Shown: positions 10,269 to 37,737 of the stretch, one piece after another
Layout of the letters: every line of letters begins with the position of its first letter
How positions within the stretch are numbered: the stretch's first letter is position 1
NCBI GenBank assembly: GCA_016342715.1
Contig: JAEINW010000022.1
Span: forward strand, 1-37,737
Direction: 5' to 3'
DNA length: 37,737 nt
Source of the DNA: Salinivirgaceae bacterium
GTDB taxonomy: Bacteria; Bacteroidota; Bacteroidia; Bacteroidales; SZUA-534
Position numbers and translations under genes: made by a program
Notes under the pieces: model-generated
What the model was told of the DNA's origin: nothing
The model's input: only the letters and a program-made list of their open reading frames with translations
Database searches by the model: none

Positions 10269-11672
10269 ATGGATATAAAAAGACTATTTACAGCACTTTT
10301 GGTAAGCGGTATATTTTCATTTTCTGCCATATCGCAAAGCAACTATTTTGGAGTTACAGGCAACATGGTATCGGGCGATTTTGATAACGATGGATTTATT
10401 GATGACATCGCGGCTTTTAATACCGCAAGTGAATCTCCTACGCTCACCCTGTGGATTTCAAATCAAGGATTTATAAATGAAGAGCATCCCAATTGTTTGC
10501 TTCCTTTTGATTTCTTAAGTTCGAAATCGTTGCAATCAAAAATTGTGTCGGGCGATTTTGATAACGATGGCTTTGTTGACGATATCGCATCAATTTACGA
10601 AGTAGGTTTAAACAACACCAGCATAACTGTTTGGATAAATAACGACAAAACATTCAAAGCAACTCGTTTTTGGTATGGACCCGATTTTGATGCAAACCAA
10701 ACTTCAAAAACAATTGTTTCTGGTGATTTTGACAATGATGGTTTTAAAGATGATATTGCAGCATTTTATAATTACGAGCAAAAACAAACCAAAGTATATG
10801 TTTGGAAATCGAATGGTGAGAAATTCGCATGGCCAGGTACTTGGTGGATTGGAAATGATTTTAATGCCACAAAAATTCAAGGAACCATTGTTGCAGGCGA
10901 TTTTGATCACGACGGTTTTGAAGATGATATTGCCTCTTTATACAATTACGATGATGATTTTTGCAGAGCTTTTGTATGGATTTCGAACAAAAATAAATTT
11001 AACTGGCCATACACTTGGTTTGAACAAGAAAACTTTGCTGCAAAAAACCTTTCAGGCAATGTAGTTGCTGGAGATTTTAACAAAAACGGATTTAACGATA
11101 ATATTGCAGCATTATATAAGGATAATGAAAACAATTCGTCAGTGTTAGTTTTTGAGAAGGGGAAAAAAGGTTTTAACGAACCTGAAATTTGGTGGTATGG
11201 AAATAATGAAGCCATTACCACAAATTCTCGCTTGGTAAGTATTGATATTAATGAAAACAATAAATTTGATCAGTTTGCTGGAATGTTGATTGAGAATGAA
11301 ACTGCAACCATTCAAAATTGGACTGCCACAAATAGACAATTTACTTTACCTGAAAATTTATGGCAAACAATAGCACTATCGGTAGAAGACTGCGAAAAAG
11401 AAGGAAGCTGTTTACCCAATGAATTATTCAGGGAATTGACTGTGTATCCGAATCCATCAGAAGGTGAATTAACAGTTCAAATTCCATATACAGAAACCGA
11501 TGAGTTAGCAAATATTGTTATTTACAATACTTTAGGTAGCAAAGTATTTGAAATGCAAGCAAAACATGGATTTGAAATTCCTTTAAACCTTACACATTTA
11601 GATAAAGGAACCTATTTGTTACAAATCATTAGCAAAGAGAATAATACAAACAAAAAAATAATTATTAAATAA
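10269..11672 (+). CDS. Secreted FG-GAP-like repeat protein with T9SS C-terminal sorting domain
   Basis: A 467-residue exported protein. A signal peptide covers about residues 1-22. Then there are five clear repeats of the form VSGDFDNDGFIDDIAAF, at roughly 33, 93, 150, 207 and 265, plus a degenerate sixth near 323 (LVSIDINENNKFDQFAGML). Each carries a DxDxDG calcium-type loop, so the middle should form an integrin-like FG-GAP/VCBS beta-propeller. The last 80 residues (LTVYPNPSEGELTVQI, then IVIYNTLGSKVFEM, then LDKGTYLLQIISKENN, ending KKIIIK) are a type A sorting signal for the type IX secretion system. The product is probably anchored at the surface or released; its ligand is unknown. The first repeats are nearly identical in DNA, which suggests recent unit duplication. 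A terminator follows. Confidence 0.88.
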   Translation: MDIKRLFTALLVSGIFSFSAISQSNYFGVTGNMVSGDFDNDGFIDDIAAFNTASESPTLTLWISNQGFINEEHPNCLLPFDFLSSKSLQSKIVSGDFDNDGFVDDIASIYEVGLNNTSITVWINNDKTFKATRFWYGPDFDANQTSKTIVSGDFDNDGFKDDIAAFYNYEQKQTKVYVWKSNGEKFAWPGTWWIGNDFNATKIQGTIVAGDFDHDGFEDDIASLYNYDDDFCRAFVWISNKNKFNWPYTWFEQENFAAKNLSGNVVAGDFNKNGFNDNIAALYKDNENNSSVLVFEKGKKGFNEPEIWWYGNNEAITTNSRLVSIDINENNKFDQFAGMLIENETATIQNWTATNRQFTLPENLWQTIALSVEDCEKEGSCLPNELFRELTVYPNPSEGELTVQIPYTETDELANIVIYNTLGSKVFEMQAKHGFEIPLNLTHLDKGTYLLQIISKENNTNKKIIIK

Positions 11673-29340: not shown

Positions 29341-29432
29341 GCTGCTTTTTATTGACAGTATCTTAAATTTAGTACTGACTTATAAACTATTAAAATAACG
29401 GTATTCAAAGTCTTGTGAGGCTTTATGTACTG

Positions 29433-29697
29433 TCATAGTATATTAATTTTACTCGCAAATATAAAAATATTTATTTGCGCTCGTGAATCTAAAAGTTGAA
29501 TAATAATCCCTTCCTAAAGAACCGGTAGGCAAGGTAGCAAATAATTTTCTATGAACTATTTCTCACAGCCTGCCCCGATTCCATCGAGGAACATTTTTAA
29601 AATTAAAGTATTTGTTAGTAATGATTAATTTGCGGTAAATCCAAGTACAAGCGAGTTTTTAGACTATACATGAGGCCGTATTTTTTTATATTTTGTT
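29433..29697 (-). repeat. Repeat B, copy 1
   Basis: About 265 bp, alignable end to end with 31586-31849 at roughly three quarters identity by eye, including 29 identical bases (29553-29581 against 31704-31732). It contains a CCCCGA/TCGAGG hairpin, a GGTAGGCAAGGTAGCA block, and outer segments that are inverted relative to each other. It fills the gap between the channel gene and DUF6090. Confidence 0.88.
29456..29463 (-). promoter_or_regulatory. Probable -7 promoter element inside repeat B copy 1
   Basis: TATATTTG on the minus strand, matching TAnnTTTG and pointing toward the DUF6090 gene 129 bases downstream. The same octamer is kept in copy 2. Confidence 0.4.
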
Positions 29698-29721
29698 GAA
29701 CCATGTTTTTATTTTGCATTT

Positions 29722-31509: not shown

Positions 31510-31585
31510 AGGTTTTATTTTATTGGCTTTAACGACCAATATAAAAAACAGTACGGATTTAATGACTTTTTCTTTATCGGTTCAT

Positions 31586-31849
31586 TCATAGTAAATTAAT
31601 TTTACTCGCAAATATAATAATATTTTAAAGCGCTCGTGAGCTAAAGGTTGAACGCTAATCCATGCCTGGATCGGTAGGCAAGGTAGCAATAATTTTTCCT
31701 TGTGAACTATTTCTCACAGCCTGCCCCGATTCACTCGGGGAACATTTTTGTAAATCAATTATGCTTGTGAGTAAAAATTAATTTGCGCTAAATCCAAGTA
31801 GACGTGACATTGCAGACTACTAATTACCCGTATTTTTTATATTTTATTG
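31586..31849 (-). repeat. Repeat B, copy 2
   Basis: Partner of 29433-29697, in the same orientation. The hairpin here is perfect (CCCCGA TTCAC TCGGGG, about 31724-31740), and CTCACAGC and GCTTGTGAG can also pair. It lies between DUF3307 and the channel gene, so the channel gene is flanked by direct repeats about 2.15 kb apart. Confidence 0.88.
31609..31616 (-). promoter_or_regulatory. Probable -7 promoter element inside repeat B copy 2
   Basis: TATATTTG on the minus strand, 99 bases before the chosen start of the channel gene. It suggests that the repeat supplies the promoter of the next gene. Confidence 0.4.
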
Positions 31850-31940
31850 TATGCTGGACTTTATCAATATGTTTTTTCTAAAATTATAAATAGATGTATC
31901 GGTATTTTCACTAATAAGAGCACTTTATAAGTTAATTCAC

Positions 31941-32754: not shown

Positions 32755-33495
32755 TTATTCATATTTTTTCAATTCCTTAACTAACTTGAATACAGTAGTT
32801 GAAGATTCTTCAGCACCTGGGTTAGCATGGTCTAATCTATTATAAATTTTTTCGGCACGTTTAATAGCAATATCACACCTTGAGAATTTCTCTCCATCTC
32901 TATCTACATATACAATCTCATCAAGTAAATTAAAAAAATCCTGCTCTATCTTTTTTGAGCCTTCATAATCATAATGTATACCCAATTTATGAATGTAAGA
33001 ATTGATTTTATCACCGTAAACGCTTCTTTGAATTGCACCTCCTTGATGGTCTTCAAAATGTAAAATTAACCAGTATTCAAACGCTTGATTAGAATATGCG
33101 ATTCTAAACTTTAACTTCTTAGCGAGCAAAATTGCATTATTAAAATTTTCAAGTTGTTTTGGATTGTCTGGCTTAGGGTCTGCATCAAAGACACACCAAA
33201 TTTGGTCATAATCATTTTACTCTGATAGCTTCTTAGCTCTTTCCACTAGTGATAGTGTATTACGCCCCTCGCCAAAAGAATCTATTGTTAATGTTGAAAG
33301 TCTGAACTTATTAAAATATGACGGTTCCGTATTTCGCCCTTCACAATAAATAAGAATTGTTGGTTTTTCTTCTAATTCAGGAGCTTTACGTTCAAGAATT
33401 ACCTCACCTCTTCTGCGTGCTTTTATTTCAGCTAATCTGAGCTTTTGTTCTTCAGCTTTCTGTTTTTGGATTAGCTTTTTGTTTTGCATTTTCAT
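32755..33495 (-). pseudogene. rloB: RloB/AbiLii-like TOPRIM-type protein, interrupted by an in-frame TAA
   Basis: The frame reads 92 codons, a TAA at 33217-33219, then 153 more codons in the same phase to the true stop at 32755. Joined, this is a complete RloB-family protein of about 246 residues. Before the stop: a basic coiled N-terminus and the TOPRIM-like Glu motif LIYCEGRNTEPSYF (E52, G53). After it: DQIWCVFDADPKPDNP, with the DxD pair at 104 and 106, then the conserved NQAFEYWLILHFEDH. The stop separates the two metal-binding motifs, so the short product should be inactive. No ATG restarts the frame soon after. One base change (from AAA, GAA or CAA) or a sequencing error would explain it. 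It follows rloA by 12 bases. Confidence 0.85.
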
Positions 33496-33507
33496 ACTTC
33501 CGTAGGC

Positions 33508-34839
33508 TTATTGAATAATGTTATCAAAATCACCTAAAAATGGAACTGCTCCATACTTTCCCCTAATATAATTGTTTTCAAATGCTTCATTTTTTCTAAC
33601 TTCATCAGTTTTAAAATCAGCTAAAGAATATAATTTAGAAGCACCAAGTGTATCTTTTTTAGCAAACCAAATTTGGTCTCTACGGAATAATCCTGAACTT
33701 AATAAATTAGTATCATGAGAATTAAAAACTAACTGAGCGTTATTAGGGTTTAATTTTTTCGAATTAAAAATTGAAATAATCTTGCAAACTAAGTTAGGAT
33801 GAATCTTTGAGTCTAATTCATCAACAAACAATACTCCTCCAATATCAATAATTTTAATAATTTGACCGATAAGAGCAAAATACTTTCTTGTACCTGATGA
33901 TTCATCTTCAAGTAATGAAAACTCAACATCCTTCAAGTATTTTCCTTCTTCGTCGAATTGTTTGTGGTACATAATGACATCAGAAAATTTTTCTTGATTC
34001 TCATCCTTCATTGTTTTTTTTATGTATGAATTTAGACCTTTAATTGCATCTTTAAGTTCCTTTGGAACATCATCCATACTGTCAATATTCAGGTTTTCAA
34101 ACGTATGCTTTTTTAATTTAAAATCATCAATACCAATATCCGCATTTTGCAAAAAAGTTAAGATGCGCTTTTTTTGTTTGCTATCTTTTGAAAGTAGCAT
34201 TGTGTCATTTAGGTATCCTTCTTCTTTAAGCCCTGAGATAACCTTTAGTTCTTTAAACGAATATAAAATAGTTTCTGCTAATAAATCATTAAACTGAGCA
34301 AGCACAGAAATTAGTAAGGCATTATCTCTAACTAATTTTTCCTTAACTAATGTATCAAGTTTTGTAAACTTCTTTGTGTTATGAATGATTTCTTGATAAT
34401 CTCTGTAGAAAAGCTCATTTTCCTTTGTTTTGGTTTTATGATAAAGCCACTCAGCCACAACTTTATCTTTATCTACTTCAAAACCGTATCTATATAAATT
34501 ATTTTCCAGAAAGAAAACAATCTCAAACTCACTGCCTTGCTCAATTGATTCAGCATTAAGACGAAAAGGCTCAATTGCAATTGGGTCACCTTTTTGAGTA
34601 TCTTTTGAAGACATTAAGACAAAATGTCTCATGAAAATTAATGCTTCAATAAACTTACTTTTCCCTCCAGCATTAGCACCATAAATTACAGCACTTTTAA
34701 GAATTCGATAGTTGAACTTTTCGTTCAAAATAATATTTTCGACTTCTCTAGTATCTTTATCGTAGTTAGAAGCCAATAGGCTTAAGGTTGATTTTTCCTT
34801 AAAAGACCTATAATTAGCAACCGAAAATTGTAAAATCAT
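33508..34839 (-). CDS. rloA: RloA/AbiLi-like AAA ATPase
   Basis: A 443-residue OLD/ABC-type ATPase (AAA_15/AAA_21). It opens ILQFSVANYRSFKEKSTLSLLAS, with Walker A GANAGGKS at residues 54-61 (Gly58 where most relatives have Ser). The signature-like LLEDESSGTRKYF lies near 310-322 and Walker B GGVLFVDELDSKIHPN near 337-352. A switch motif NSHDTNLL follows near 383-390. With the RloB partner it forms a two-gene ATPase-nuclease defence unit, first described beside type I restriction loci and related to lactococcal AbiL. The ATPase is thought to sense infection and license the TOPRIM-like partner. The gene looks intact while its partner is broken. Repeat A lies upstream. Confidence 0.85.
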   Translation of the reverse strand: MILQFSVANYRSFKEKSTLSLLASNYDKDTREVENIILNEKFNYRILKSAVIYGANAGGKSKFIEALIFMRHFVLMSSKDTQKGDPIAIEPFRLNAESIEQGSEFEIVFFLENNLYRYGFEVDKDKVVAEWLYHKTKTKENELFYRDYQEIIHNTKKFTKLDTLVKEKLVRDNALLISVLAQFNDLLAETILYSFKELKVISGLKEEGYLNDTMLLSKDSKQKKRILTFLQNADIGIDDFKLKKHTFENLNIDSMDDVPKELKDAIKGLNSYIKKTMKDENQEKFSDVIMYHKQFDEEGKYLKDVEFSLLEDESSGTRKYFALIGQIIKIIDIGGVLFVDELDSKIHPNLVCKIISIFNSKKLNPNNAQLVFNSHDTNLLSSGLFRRDQIWFAKKDTLGASKLYSLADFKTDEVRKNEAFENNYIRGKYGAVPFLGDFDNIIQ

Positions 34840-34875: not shown

Positions 34876-34947
34876 CGCAATTAATTTAATAAATGATGTT
34901 GATATTTTGTTTTTATTGCGAGAACTATGCGTCTCTTAGTATTGGTG

Positions 34948-35143
34948 CTAACTTACTAATAGAATCACCTTATTACTTCTATCCAACCAAAAAAATGCAT
35001 AAAAGTTGTTTTATCCATTCAAAATTTAAGCATGATTTTTATTTTTGAACCTTTTAAAACCCTTTACTAAAGTTTGACATTTTAAAACTAAACATAATAC
35101 TTTACAATAACAACCGTTAGGGCCTTTATATAATCGGTAAGCC
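34948..35143 (-). repeat. Repeat A, copy 1
   Basis: 196 bases that match 37542-37737 with four substitutions and no gaps (about 98%, counted by hand). The left edge is sharp at CTAAC, which reads GTTAG on the minus strand. It sits between the methyltransferase gene and rloA. A 39-codon frame (AYRLYKGPNGCYCKVLC...) stays open in both copies. Confidence 0.95.
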
Positions 35144-35398
35144 ATTAGCTCCCCGCTGCCCCGCTGCGCTGCCGTACGAGCTTGCGAGCTCAACGAAGTT
35201 AATATCCATGTTAAATATTTTAGGTTGGTGTAATATTTATTGCATGGATATTTCATATTATTATATAATGTTTATGTTGTGGTGTATTGTTTACAACATT
35301 TAGCTAAACGACAGTGCGGATTTAACAACTTGTAAGTATCCTTTTTGGCGGTTAGCAAATTTATTTATTTGTCGAACACAATTTACATAATTTAATTT
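35144..35398. other. Spacer with GC-rich patch and small hairpins
   Basis: No gene. It contains a GC-rich patch near 35152-35195 with GAGCT TGCG AGCTC, an ACAGTGCGGATTTAA block (35321-35335) that recurs as ACAGTACGGATTTAA near 31549-31563 upstream of the channel gene, and part of the structured sequence that leads into repeat B copy 3. The second copy of the upstream sequence would lie beyond the window. Confidence 0.5.
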
Positions 35399-35484
35399 CG
35401 GTGAGTAAATTAAATTGCGGTAAATTAAAGTACGAGCGAAGTTTCAAGCTAAACATTACCCGTATTTTTTTTAGCTTTTGTTAG
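35399..35484 (-). repeat. Repeat B, partial copy 3, overlapping the methyltransferase 3' end
   Basis: About 85 bp similar to the right parts of copies 1 and 2 (GTGAGTAAA, AATTGCGGTAAAT, TACCCGTATTTTTT). It begins inside the last codons of the methyltransferase gene at GTTAGGC (35480-35486) and contains a perfect AATTTAATTT/AAATTAAATT hairpin just beyond its left edge. Confidence 0.7.
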
Positions 35485-36679
35485 GCTCAGTAATTCCTAG
35501 TTTTATTTCTTCAATTACTAATTCCTGTGATTTAATTATTTTTATATCTGAGTTATATTTAAATAATCTATCTTCTCCATTCTCAGGTCTAGTTTGAATA
35601 ATGATTCTTAAAAAATACCCCTTCTTTTTTGTAGCTTTTTCAAGTTTTTCAATGCAATCGGAAATAGTTTCAATAGAAGATTGAATTTTTACAGGAACAG
35701 GTTTATCCCGGTAATTTTCCATAAGGAAACCATCAATTCCTGAGTTTCTTTGAACAGGGACAGCATCAATACTTTTTAAAATATTTAATTCTTTTTCGTT
35801 TTTTTGTATGTAGTCTGATTTTCCATTCTTTAAAAGTGCTGATTCAGAGATTATCATTTCATCAATTCGCTTAACTGCAAGATGCACAGCGTCAATCGAA
35901 ACGTCAATCCCTATGAAATTTCTACCAAGATGTTTAGCTGATACACATGTTGTCCCGCTACCACAAAATGGGTCAAGAACTAAATCTCCTTCATCCGAGC
36001 AAATTTTTAATATTTGATTTATTAATAGAACAGGTTTTTGAGTAGGATAACCAACTCTTTCTTTTGCTTTAGGATTTAAATAAGGAATTTCCCACAAATC
36101 AGATAATGGAACTCCCTTTTTCGCTTTACCTAAAACAACTTCTCCATCCTTATCTCTTTTATATATTGATTTTCCTGAAGTTGTTCTCACTCTGTCTTGA
36201 AGAATTTGGTCAACGTTTGTAGTTGCTGAATAATCTGTAAGTATTTTGTTAAATTTAAATTCTTCTGTTTTAGAATAAAAGTATATGTTTTGGTGTGAAT
36301 TTAAAAGACCTTTTTTCGAATTTGACCATCTTTTATATGACCAAATAATTTCACTTTGAAATTGTTTTTCACCAAAAACTTTATCCAAAACTAATCTTAA
36401 GTGGTGTGATGCTGCTTTATCACAATGCAAAAAAACGCTACCTGAGTTTTTTAATATTCGTTTGCATTCTTTCAAACAGGCTTCAATAAGATTTAAATAA
36501 TCATTTAAAGAATTCCAACTGTCGCTAAATTCATACTTTTTATCTTCACCTCTGGTTACAAGAGAATGAGATTTTTGAGTAAAAAATGGAGGGTCAAAAT
36601 AAACCAAATCAACAGAAAAGCTCTCCTGCTCTTTTAATCTTTCTACACAATTTCCGTGATATATTTTATTAATTTCCAT
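35471..36679 (-). CDS. Type II DNA methyltransferase, beta class (probably N6-adenine)
   Basis: 402 residues from the ATG at 36679, one base after the endonuclease stop; the ATG at 36703 would add eight residues and overlap the endonuclease. The catalytic motif DPPF (29-32, in VDLVYFDPPFF) comes first and the SAM motif LDPFCGSGTT (235-244) after it, the beta-class order. DPPF favours adenine N6 methylation. LWEIPYLNPKAKERVGYPTQKP precedes the SAM motif as usual. Residues 285-402 form an extension with GIDGFL (314-319) and VPVKIQSS (328-335), like a degenerate restriction-type core. It protects the genome from the adjacent endonuclease. The final codons carry GCCTAAC, which is part of the following repeat. 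Confidence 0.9.
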   Translation of the reverse strand: MEINKIYHGNCVERLKEQESFSVDLVYFDPPFFTQKSHSLVTRGEDKKYEFSDSWNSLNDYLNLIEACLKECKRILKNSGSVFLHCDKAASHHLRLVLDKVFGEKQFQSEIIWSYKRWSNSKKGLLNSHQNIYFYSKTEEFKFNKILTDYSATTNVDQILQDRVRTTSGKSIYKRDKDGEVVLGKAKKGVPLSDLWEIPYLNPKAKERVGYPTQKPVLLINQILKICSDEGDLVLDPFCGSGTTCVSAKHLGRNFIGIDVSIDAVHLAVKRIDEMIISESALLKNGKSDYIQKNEKELNILKSIDAVPVQRNSGIDGFLMENYRDKPVPVKIQSSIETISDCIEKLEKATKKKGYFLRIIIQTRPENGEDRLFKYNSDIKIIKSQELVIEEIKLGITEPNKS

Positions 36680-36680
36680 G

Positions 36681-37460
36681 TTATGCGTCTCTATCGTCTG
36701 CAATTTTTGTTAGTATTTCCTTTAAATCAAATCCTGTATAGGCTGTTAGAAAATCCCAAGCTTCATCTCCACCATAATATTCCCCGCCAACTCCTGCGTA
36801 AATAGTTTTTAAGGTTTCTTGAATTCTCTTGGCTTGTTCTCTTTGTGGATAATAGAACATAACTCTTATTGGTTTATAGCCATGACTTTTAATTGCCTTT
36901 ACTCTGGTATGCTCTTTAGTTATATGGTCGCCATCTGTTGTTGCATCTCTCCATTTTATTTCAATTGCATTGCCTTCGTCAAGAAAATCTATTTCAAAAG
37001 TTTTAGGTCTTGCTCCTTGATTATTTTCAACAAGAGTTTTACCGCCATTCAAATTTTTAAATTGAAGACACAATGAAGCTGCTTCTTCAAGGAAAGACCC
37101 CGCATATTTGTATAAGAATCGTCCTGTATTTTGGTATTCATCAATCAGACGACCTTCTTCAGTTGGAATTCCTAAAACTCTATAAATCAAATAATGTGAG
37201 TTGTCATCCAAAAGCATCTCTTCTTTTCTGGCTTCTATTTTTTCTCCAAGATTTTGTGCATATAATTCTGCTAACTCTTCAATTTTTAATGTAAGTAAAG
37301 GAAGTGGGGCACCTGCTTCTATCGCTTGTCGAATTTCATTATTGCCATATTCTTGGGCTTCCTCCATCATTATATTCTTTGCTTTATTTTTTGTCTCAAT
37401 GCCAATTAACTTGCAGTAATCAACAAGTTGTTTTTTATTTAAGCTTTCAATTTTTCTCAT
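36681..37460 (-). CDS. Type II restriction endonuclease, ApaLI-like
   Basis: A 259-residue endonuclease. Asp158 (FEIDFLDEG) and Glu167-Ile-Lys169 (AIEIKW) form a PD-(D/E)xK core. It is followed by RDATTDGDHITKEHTRVKAI and HGYKPIRVMFYYPQREQAKRI, which match my memory of the ApaLI-type family; ApaLI cuts GTGCAC. The N-terminal 140 residues are helical. The gene precedes its methyltransferase with one base between stop and ATG, so both come from one mRNA. No controller (C) protein gene is visible. The whole unit is flanked by direct copies of repeat A. The specificity is inferred from family and not shown by the sequence. Confidence 0.8.
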   Translation of the reverse strand: MRKIESLNKKQLVDYCKLIGIETKNKAKNIMMEEAQEYGNNEIRQAIEAGAPLPLLTLKIEELAELYAQNLGEKIEARKEEMLLDDNSHYLIYRVLGIPTEEGRLIDEYQNTGRFLYKYAGSFLEEAASLCLQFKNLNGGKTLVENNQGARPKTFEIDFLDEGNAIEIKWRDATTDGDHITKEHTRVKAIKSHGYKPIRVMFYYPQREQAKRIQETLKTIYAGVGGEYYGGDEAWDFLTAYTGFDLKEILTKIADDRDA

Positions 37461-37541
37461 TAATTAAGTTTAAAGTTTTTTGTAAAAATACTATTAATAT
37501 TATAATCTAATCTAGGAATATTGTGCGTTCTATTATTGAGC

Positions 37542-37737
37542 CTAACTTACTAATAGAATCACCTTATTACTTCTATCCAACCAAAAAAATGCATAAAAGT
37601 TGTTCTATCCATTCAAATTTTAAGCATGATTTTTATTTTTGAACCTTTTAAAATCCTTTGCTAAAGTTTGACATTTTAAAACTAAACATAATACTTTACA
37701 ATAACAACCGTTAGGGCCTTTATATAATCGGTAAGCC
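37542..37737 (-). repeat. Repeat A, copy 2 (runs off the window)
   Basis: 98% identical to 34948-35143 in the same orientation. The left edge is again CTAAC, preceded by GC to make GCCTAAC at 37540-37546. The repeat continues past the window end, so its true length is not known. Confidence 0.95.

Follow-up and report, generated by a model that had tools for sequence, protein, structure and literature searches.

Restriction genes are among the listed cargo of integron cassettes (PMC8618304). Restriction units with long direct repeats are also already known, and the part of PMC3874152 that cites Nobusato 2000 and Furuta 2010 speaks of restriction-modification systems with a long target duplication. 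Surveys define integrons by IntI and/or clusters of attC sites and report almost no complete ones in Bacteroidetes; with IntegronFinder 2.0, Bacteroidetes proper yielded only In0 elements and one complete integron, in Salinibacter (PMC9024848). In the open-access literature searched, no paper was found that describes an IntI-free integron platform for this lineage, and an integron-like system in Bacteroidota-type bacteria has apparently been overlooked so far. If this is true, defence genes in these bacteria would travel by an integron-like platform that is missed by IntI-based searches, and the site-specific excision of a restriction unit would behave differently from its loss by recombination between long repeats.

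The stretch analysed here (the window) is an entire contig of 37,737 bases (C353) from a 358-contig draft genome. It carries a type II restriction-modification operon of the ApaLI type, with the PF09499 endonuclease, the adjoining methyltransferase and the two-gene order of such operons, and its proteins show no notable difference from them. Like the systems with long target duplication, this type II operon has long direct repeats (repeat A) around it, one of them cut by the contig end; unlike in those systems, the repeat stands apart from the operon, and a better border is found inside the repeats. The likeness to integron cassettes consists in complementary cores at matched ends, a predicted crossover of the G/TT type (the slash marks the point of exchange), an attC-like site after the genes, and, in relatives, a first cassette that adjoins a recombinase gene. 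However, the cores are 9-10 bp or longer, the cassettes appear dispersed, and the recombinases lack the additional domain of IntI and score below the cut-off for integron integrases. We consider it probable that the operon is a single integron-type gene cassette and that repeat A is a separate feature.

The restriction operon and its matched ends

The features of the window that bear on the operon are the following.

29385-29702, minus strand: family-B attC-like element, degenerate (fold z 0.4)
31538-31860, minus strand: family-B attC-like element (fold z -3.2)
34944-34952, minus strand: core-like GTTAGCACC where copy 1 of repeat A ends, near an AbiL-type operon
34948-35143, minus strand: first copy of repeat A (copy 1), upstream of the AbiL-type operon
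35201-35257, no strand assigned: dispersed 57-bp palindrome, located between copy 1 and the attC-like site (fold z -5.6)
35303-35489, minus strand: family-B attC-like site belonging to the restriction cassette, starting at the 3' core and ending in GTTTAGC (35309-35303)
35309-37545, minus strand: predicted gene cassette of 2237 bp, as delimited by the cores
35471-36703, minus strand: type II DNA methyltransferase (N4/N6), 410 aa (PF01555, E = 5e-55; PADLOC MTase_II, E = 1e-168)
35480-35489, minus strand: cassette 3' core R'' TGAGCCTAAC, overlapping the last methyltransferase codons
36681-37460, minus strand: ApaLI-like type II restriction endonuclease, 259 aa (PF09499, E = 9e-86; PADLOC REase_II)
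37537-37546, minus strand: cassette 5' core R' GTTAGGCTCA, the exact 10-bp complement of 35480-35489
37542-37737, minus strand: second copy of repeat A (copy 2), truncated where the contig ends, with a 77-base identical tail equal to the assembly k

A species-genome search returned 63 relatives of the endonuclease, the best of them 78% identical. They span the Bacteroidota as well as the Gammaproteobacteria, the Chloroflexota and other groups, a spread that indicates horizontal transfer. Of the 57 loci examined, most had the endonuclease and methyltransferase genes in this same order.

The preliminary description regarded the operon as a mobile unit with repeat A as its limits. Our analysis agrees with the mobile unit but not with these limits, since the recurring borders are 10-bp cores inside the repeats. 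The window holds exactly two occurrences of GAGCCTAAC, one per strand, and they flank the operon. The match extends to a perfect 10-bp complement (GTTAGGCTCA and TGAGCCTAAC), and each of these 10-mers is present once in the window. When the upstream sequence was shuffled 20000 times, a core pair of this kind arose in only 73 cases. The complementary recombination cores expected of an integron cassette, one at its 5' end and one where attC begins, are present with a perfect match over 10 bp, and the G/TT crossover in R' is predicted at 37546/37545.

The same geometry recurs in five relatives (L063, L068, L072, L075 and L110), where a pair of 9-10 bp cores, GTTGGGCACA or GTTGGGCAC, is present; one core precedes the endonuclease start by 72-90 bp, the other the methyltransferase stop by 18-19 bp. 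In these five loci the cassette is followed by long complementary arms that end in CCGTTG or similar and are attC-like, and L072 and L075 contain attC-like arrays. A sixth locus, L076, has a 9-bp core pair with similar geometry. Breakpoints away from the repeats, named in advance as evidence against units bounded by repeat A, are thereby found indirectly, as the cassette borders of relatives. Among the 48 loci in which both genes were delimited (47 relatives and the window), cores of at least 9 bp were present in only 7, the window included, so that the restriction family must also move or sit otherwise. We rejected an arrangement with the operon in plus orientation and repeat A as attC, since the minus orientation is favoured by the 10-bp core pair and by the geometry at the gene ends of the relatives.

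The attC-like site behind the genes belongs to family B, with the consensus ...AAC AAAATATAAAAAATACGG ... CCGTACTGTTTTTTATATCGGTC GTT.... The contigs sampled contain members of this family at some twenty or more positions, and the arms are complementary in most copies. At the restriction cassette, the 3' arm lacks about 11 bp relative to the sister copies and the site folds weakly (z -1.8 and -1.1), suggesting that it may be less active or inactive. The control attC sites fold far better than shuffles (z -7.5 in L075 and z -6.4 in L110). The earlier statement that everything between the repeats is single copy holds for the two genes, but the elements at 35201-35257 and 35303-35489 are both dispersed. 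The 57-bp palindrome at 35201-35257 has more than 15 copies in the genome. In many cases CTATCTGACCAATAAAATAAAATTATAAACAGATGAAA follows it at a gene start, and the palindrome was also seen in L017, L018, L021, L024 and L025.

Sister cassettes with matched ends were identified elsewhere in this genome. Contigs C191, C202, C126 and C321 each carry a stretch that ends in a family-B copy and has perfectly matched 10-bp cores at a spacing of 0.7-1.8 kb, so the restriction operon is one of several cassettes with matched ends. No flanking repeat resembling repeat A was found at the other cassettes tested, with C202 and C126 checked over 250-450 bp of left flank.

Read on the minus strand from 37545 to 35309, the proposed cassette would comprise the 5' core GTTAGGCTCA, the two genes, the 3' core TGAGCCTAAC overlapping the methyltransferase end, and the attC-like site. 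By exchange at the G/TT of such cores, a tyrosine recombinase would excise the cassette as a circle and reinsert it elsewhere. The predicted circle would join 35309 to 37545 (minus strand, ...CTGTCG/TTAGGCTCA...), and the empty site expected after excision would read ...ATTAGTAAG/TTTAGCTAAATG.... We infer both the recombination event and the identity of the recombinase that would serve this cassette.

Repeat A and the contig end

The two 196-base copies of repeat A (34948-35143 and 37542-37737) align without gaps and with exactly four mismatches, at 35011/37605, 35024/37618, 35060/37654 and 35066/37660, confirming what had been noted before. In a search of the genome against itself, one copy matched the other with E = 8e-93, a similarity not attributable to chance. 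Apart from one 35-bp AT-rich match, no other copy was found in the genome, and searches of 60 relatives (none of the same genus) and of 395 genomes of the class returned only short AT-rich matches, none of them convincing.

Copy 2 stops at the final base of the contig and may extend past this point. From the last mismatch at 37660, exactly 77 identical bases lead up to the contig end; when about 60 other contigs were compared, exact matches of contig ends to other sequence were often 77 bases long and never longer. Together, these observations mark a fork in a de Bruijn assembly with k = 77: the contig stopped at the point of merger between copy 2 and copy 1. A second assembly fork is seen at the other end of the window, where bases 1-77 are the first 77 bases of contig C177. 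No contig continuing copy 2 into a right flank was found in the bin. The smallest contig seen measures 4177 bp and short contigs are probably missing from the bin, so the missing exit contig weighs little. The recent arrival of the unit, proposed in the preliminary description, is not supported, as the border of copy 2 is hidden by the contig end and the copies are already 2% apart.

The same contig end would be expected if a 2594-bp unit of repeat A, operon and attC-like site existed in tandem or as a circle through homologous recombination at A, with the assembly graph looping into copy 1. Copy 2 indeed stops precisely at a 77-mer common to copy 1, the bin holds no exit contig, two other contigs, L145 and L148, loop back on themselves at their ends in this manner, and restriction systems flanked by direct repeats can be amplified in tandem through them (PMC3031569). 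We nevertheless regard this arrangement as quite unlikely: a short shared stretch after A would yield an identical graph, an absent exit contig is weak evidence in a bin that has probably lost its short contigs, and the copies differ by four bases. Excision or amplification via repeat A is, as such, possible in principle.

The position of copy 2 at a contig end in a 358-contig draft would also be in keeping with an assembly artefact, in which copy 2 is a mis-joined or strain-variant copy 1 and the cell contains no second repeat. An artefact appears very improbable in view of the four distinct mismatches spread along copy 2, its different left neighbour, and a left junction that coincides with a clean cassette core.

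Both copies of repeat A end in AGTAA/GTTAG on the minus strand, copy 2 before the cassette core and copy 1 before the core-like GTTAGCACC. For the latter (34944-34952), no matching partner was found in the window. The neighbouring AbiL-type pair (an AAA ATPase gene and an RloB-like gene, 32755-34839) has no matched core pair; its RloB-like gene is split by one in-frame stop into open reading frames of 92 and 124 aa.

Repeat A could alternatively be a target duplication of about 200 bp, generated when the restriction unit inserted. Its size suits the "order of 100 bp" mentioned in section 7 of PMC3874152, and the operons of relatives L090 and L106 lie between duplicated 3' ends of host genes. 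At the present locus, copy 1 does not abut the operon, as the attC-like site and the palindrome lie between them, the cassette cores provide a better and recurring border, and the 60 relatives and 395 class genomes yielded no empty site carrying one copy of A. We therefore judge insertion with target duplication unlikely.

Long direct repeats on both sides of the operon were observed in three relatives: L090 (5618-5784/7740-7905), L106 (5739-5864/7849-7974) and L117 (2816-3102/5166-5452). The repeats duplicate the 3' end of an AhpC/TSA gene in L090 (84%) and of a peptidase M54 gene in L106 (89%), which fits insertion with long target duplication at these two loci.

In the reading of the operon as an integron-type cassette, the cassette landed beside repeat A, and probably did so independently of A. 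When the cassette was removed in silico, the same point of repeat A recurred 357 bp on. Repeat A would accordingly be the sequence just before the insertion point, present again 357 bp beyond the far end of the cassette. Most simply, it would be a short tandem repeat with a unit of about 357 bp, and the cassette would have inserted at a unit junction. The assembly fork suggests that copy 2 goes on in the same way as copy 1; in that case the original site would have been a tandem repeat of about 357 bp, a reading that leans on sequence past the contig end.

Other identities of repeat A were considered and rejected. As an attC site, it does not show attC-like folding (z +0.1 to -1.4). As an attI site, it offers only a 6-bp inverted repeat with a 12-base gap before the core; in relatives, the clearer attachment sites have arms measuring 8-14 bp. 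Nor is there a recombinase beside copy 1. As a dispersed family, it has no further copy in the genome and no convincing one elsewhere. Direct repeats of another type, with a period of about 174 bp, are found at 10356-11125 of the window, inside coding sequence, where a protein motif of the SGDFDNDGF type is repeated.

Recombinases beside cassettes and across the class

No recombinase gene is present on the window contig, which is cut. In L063 and L072, the restriction cassette lies directly 3' of a tyrosine recombinase gene. Contig C322 encodes a recombinase of 385 aa that is 41% identical to the recombinase preceding the L072 cassette. The sequence GTTATGGGC is located 85 bp past its stop codon, and the complement follows 1.9 kb further, then an attC-like sequence; the matched ends of this cassette, directly behind the recombinase, measure 9 bp (L162, 745-3919). 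The recombinases of C322, L063 and L072 reach 185-195 bits against a cut-off of 265 for integron integrases, and their match skips profile positions of about 180-240, indicating that the IntI additional domain is lacking. They are not counted as IntI.

The one true integron integrase in the genome is encoded on C173 (470 bits against the cut-off of 265, IntI domain present). Downstream of it, and transcribed in the direction of the integrase, are GyrI/Cass2 and GmrSD (type IV restriction) genes with attC-like sequence between them; the region, integrase gene included, is L012, 5546-9641. This IntI adjoins other attC-like sites, and is at most a candidate for serving the restriction cassette.

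A survey of the class identified the recombinase family in 136 of 295 sampled genomes. Matched cassette ends were defined as a GTT-core at most 200 bp from the recombinase stop with a complement of at least 9 bp at 0.2-4.5 kb downstream. They were found after the recombinase in 23 of the 35 loci with enough downstream sequence, compared with 3.9 +/- 1.9 (maximum 8) in dinucleotide shuffles; some of the 23, such as L285 and L294, resemble chance pairs. At the sequence level, this result supports an integron-like platform with a different recombinase, while falling short of proving recombination.

We lean towards the view that the restriction unit is a cassette of a platform widespread in the class. 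In such a platform, the gene of an XerA/XerD-like recombinase without IntI domain would be followed, right after its stop codon, by an attachment site that is often palindromic, and the cassettes would carry complementary ends of 9-13 bp, all in a lineage with almost no complete integrons reported. Loci L262-L301 show XerA/XerD-like recombinases without IntI domain, followed by often palindromic sites and then by cassettes with complementary ends of 9-13 bp. Many of the attachment regions are palindromic, with arms of up to 14 bp, and 12 of the 23 attC-like stretches fold with z < -2.
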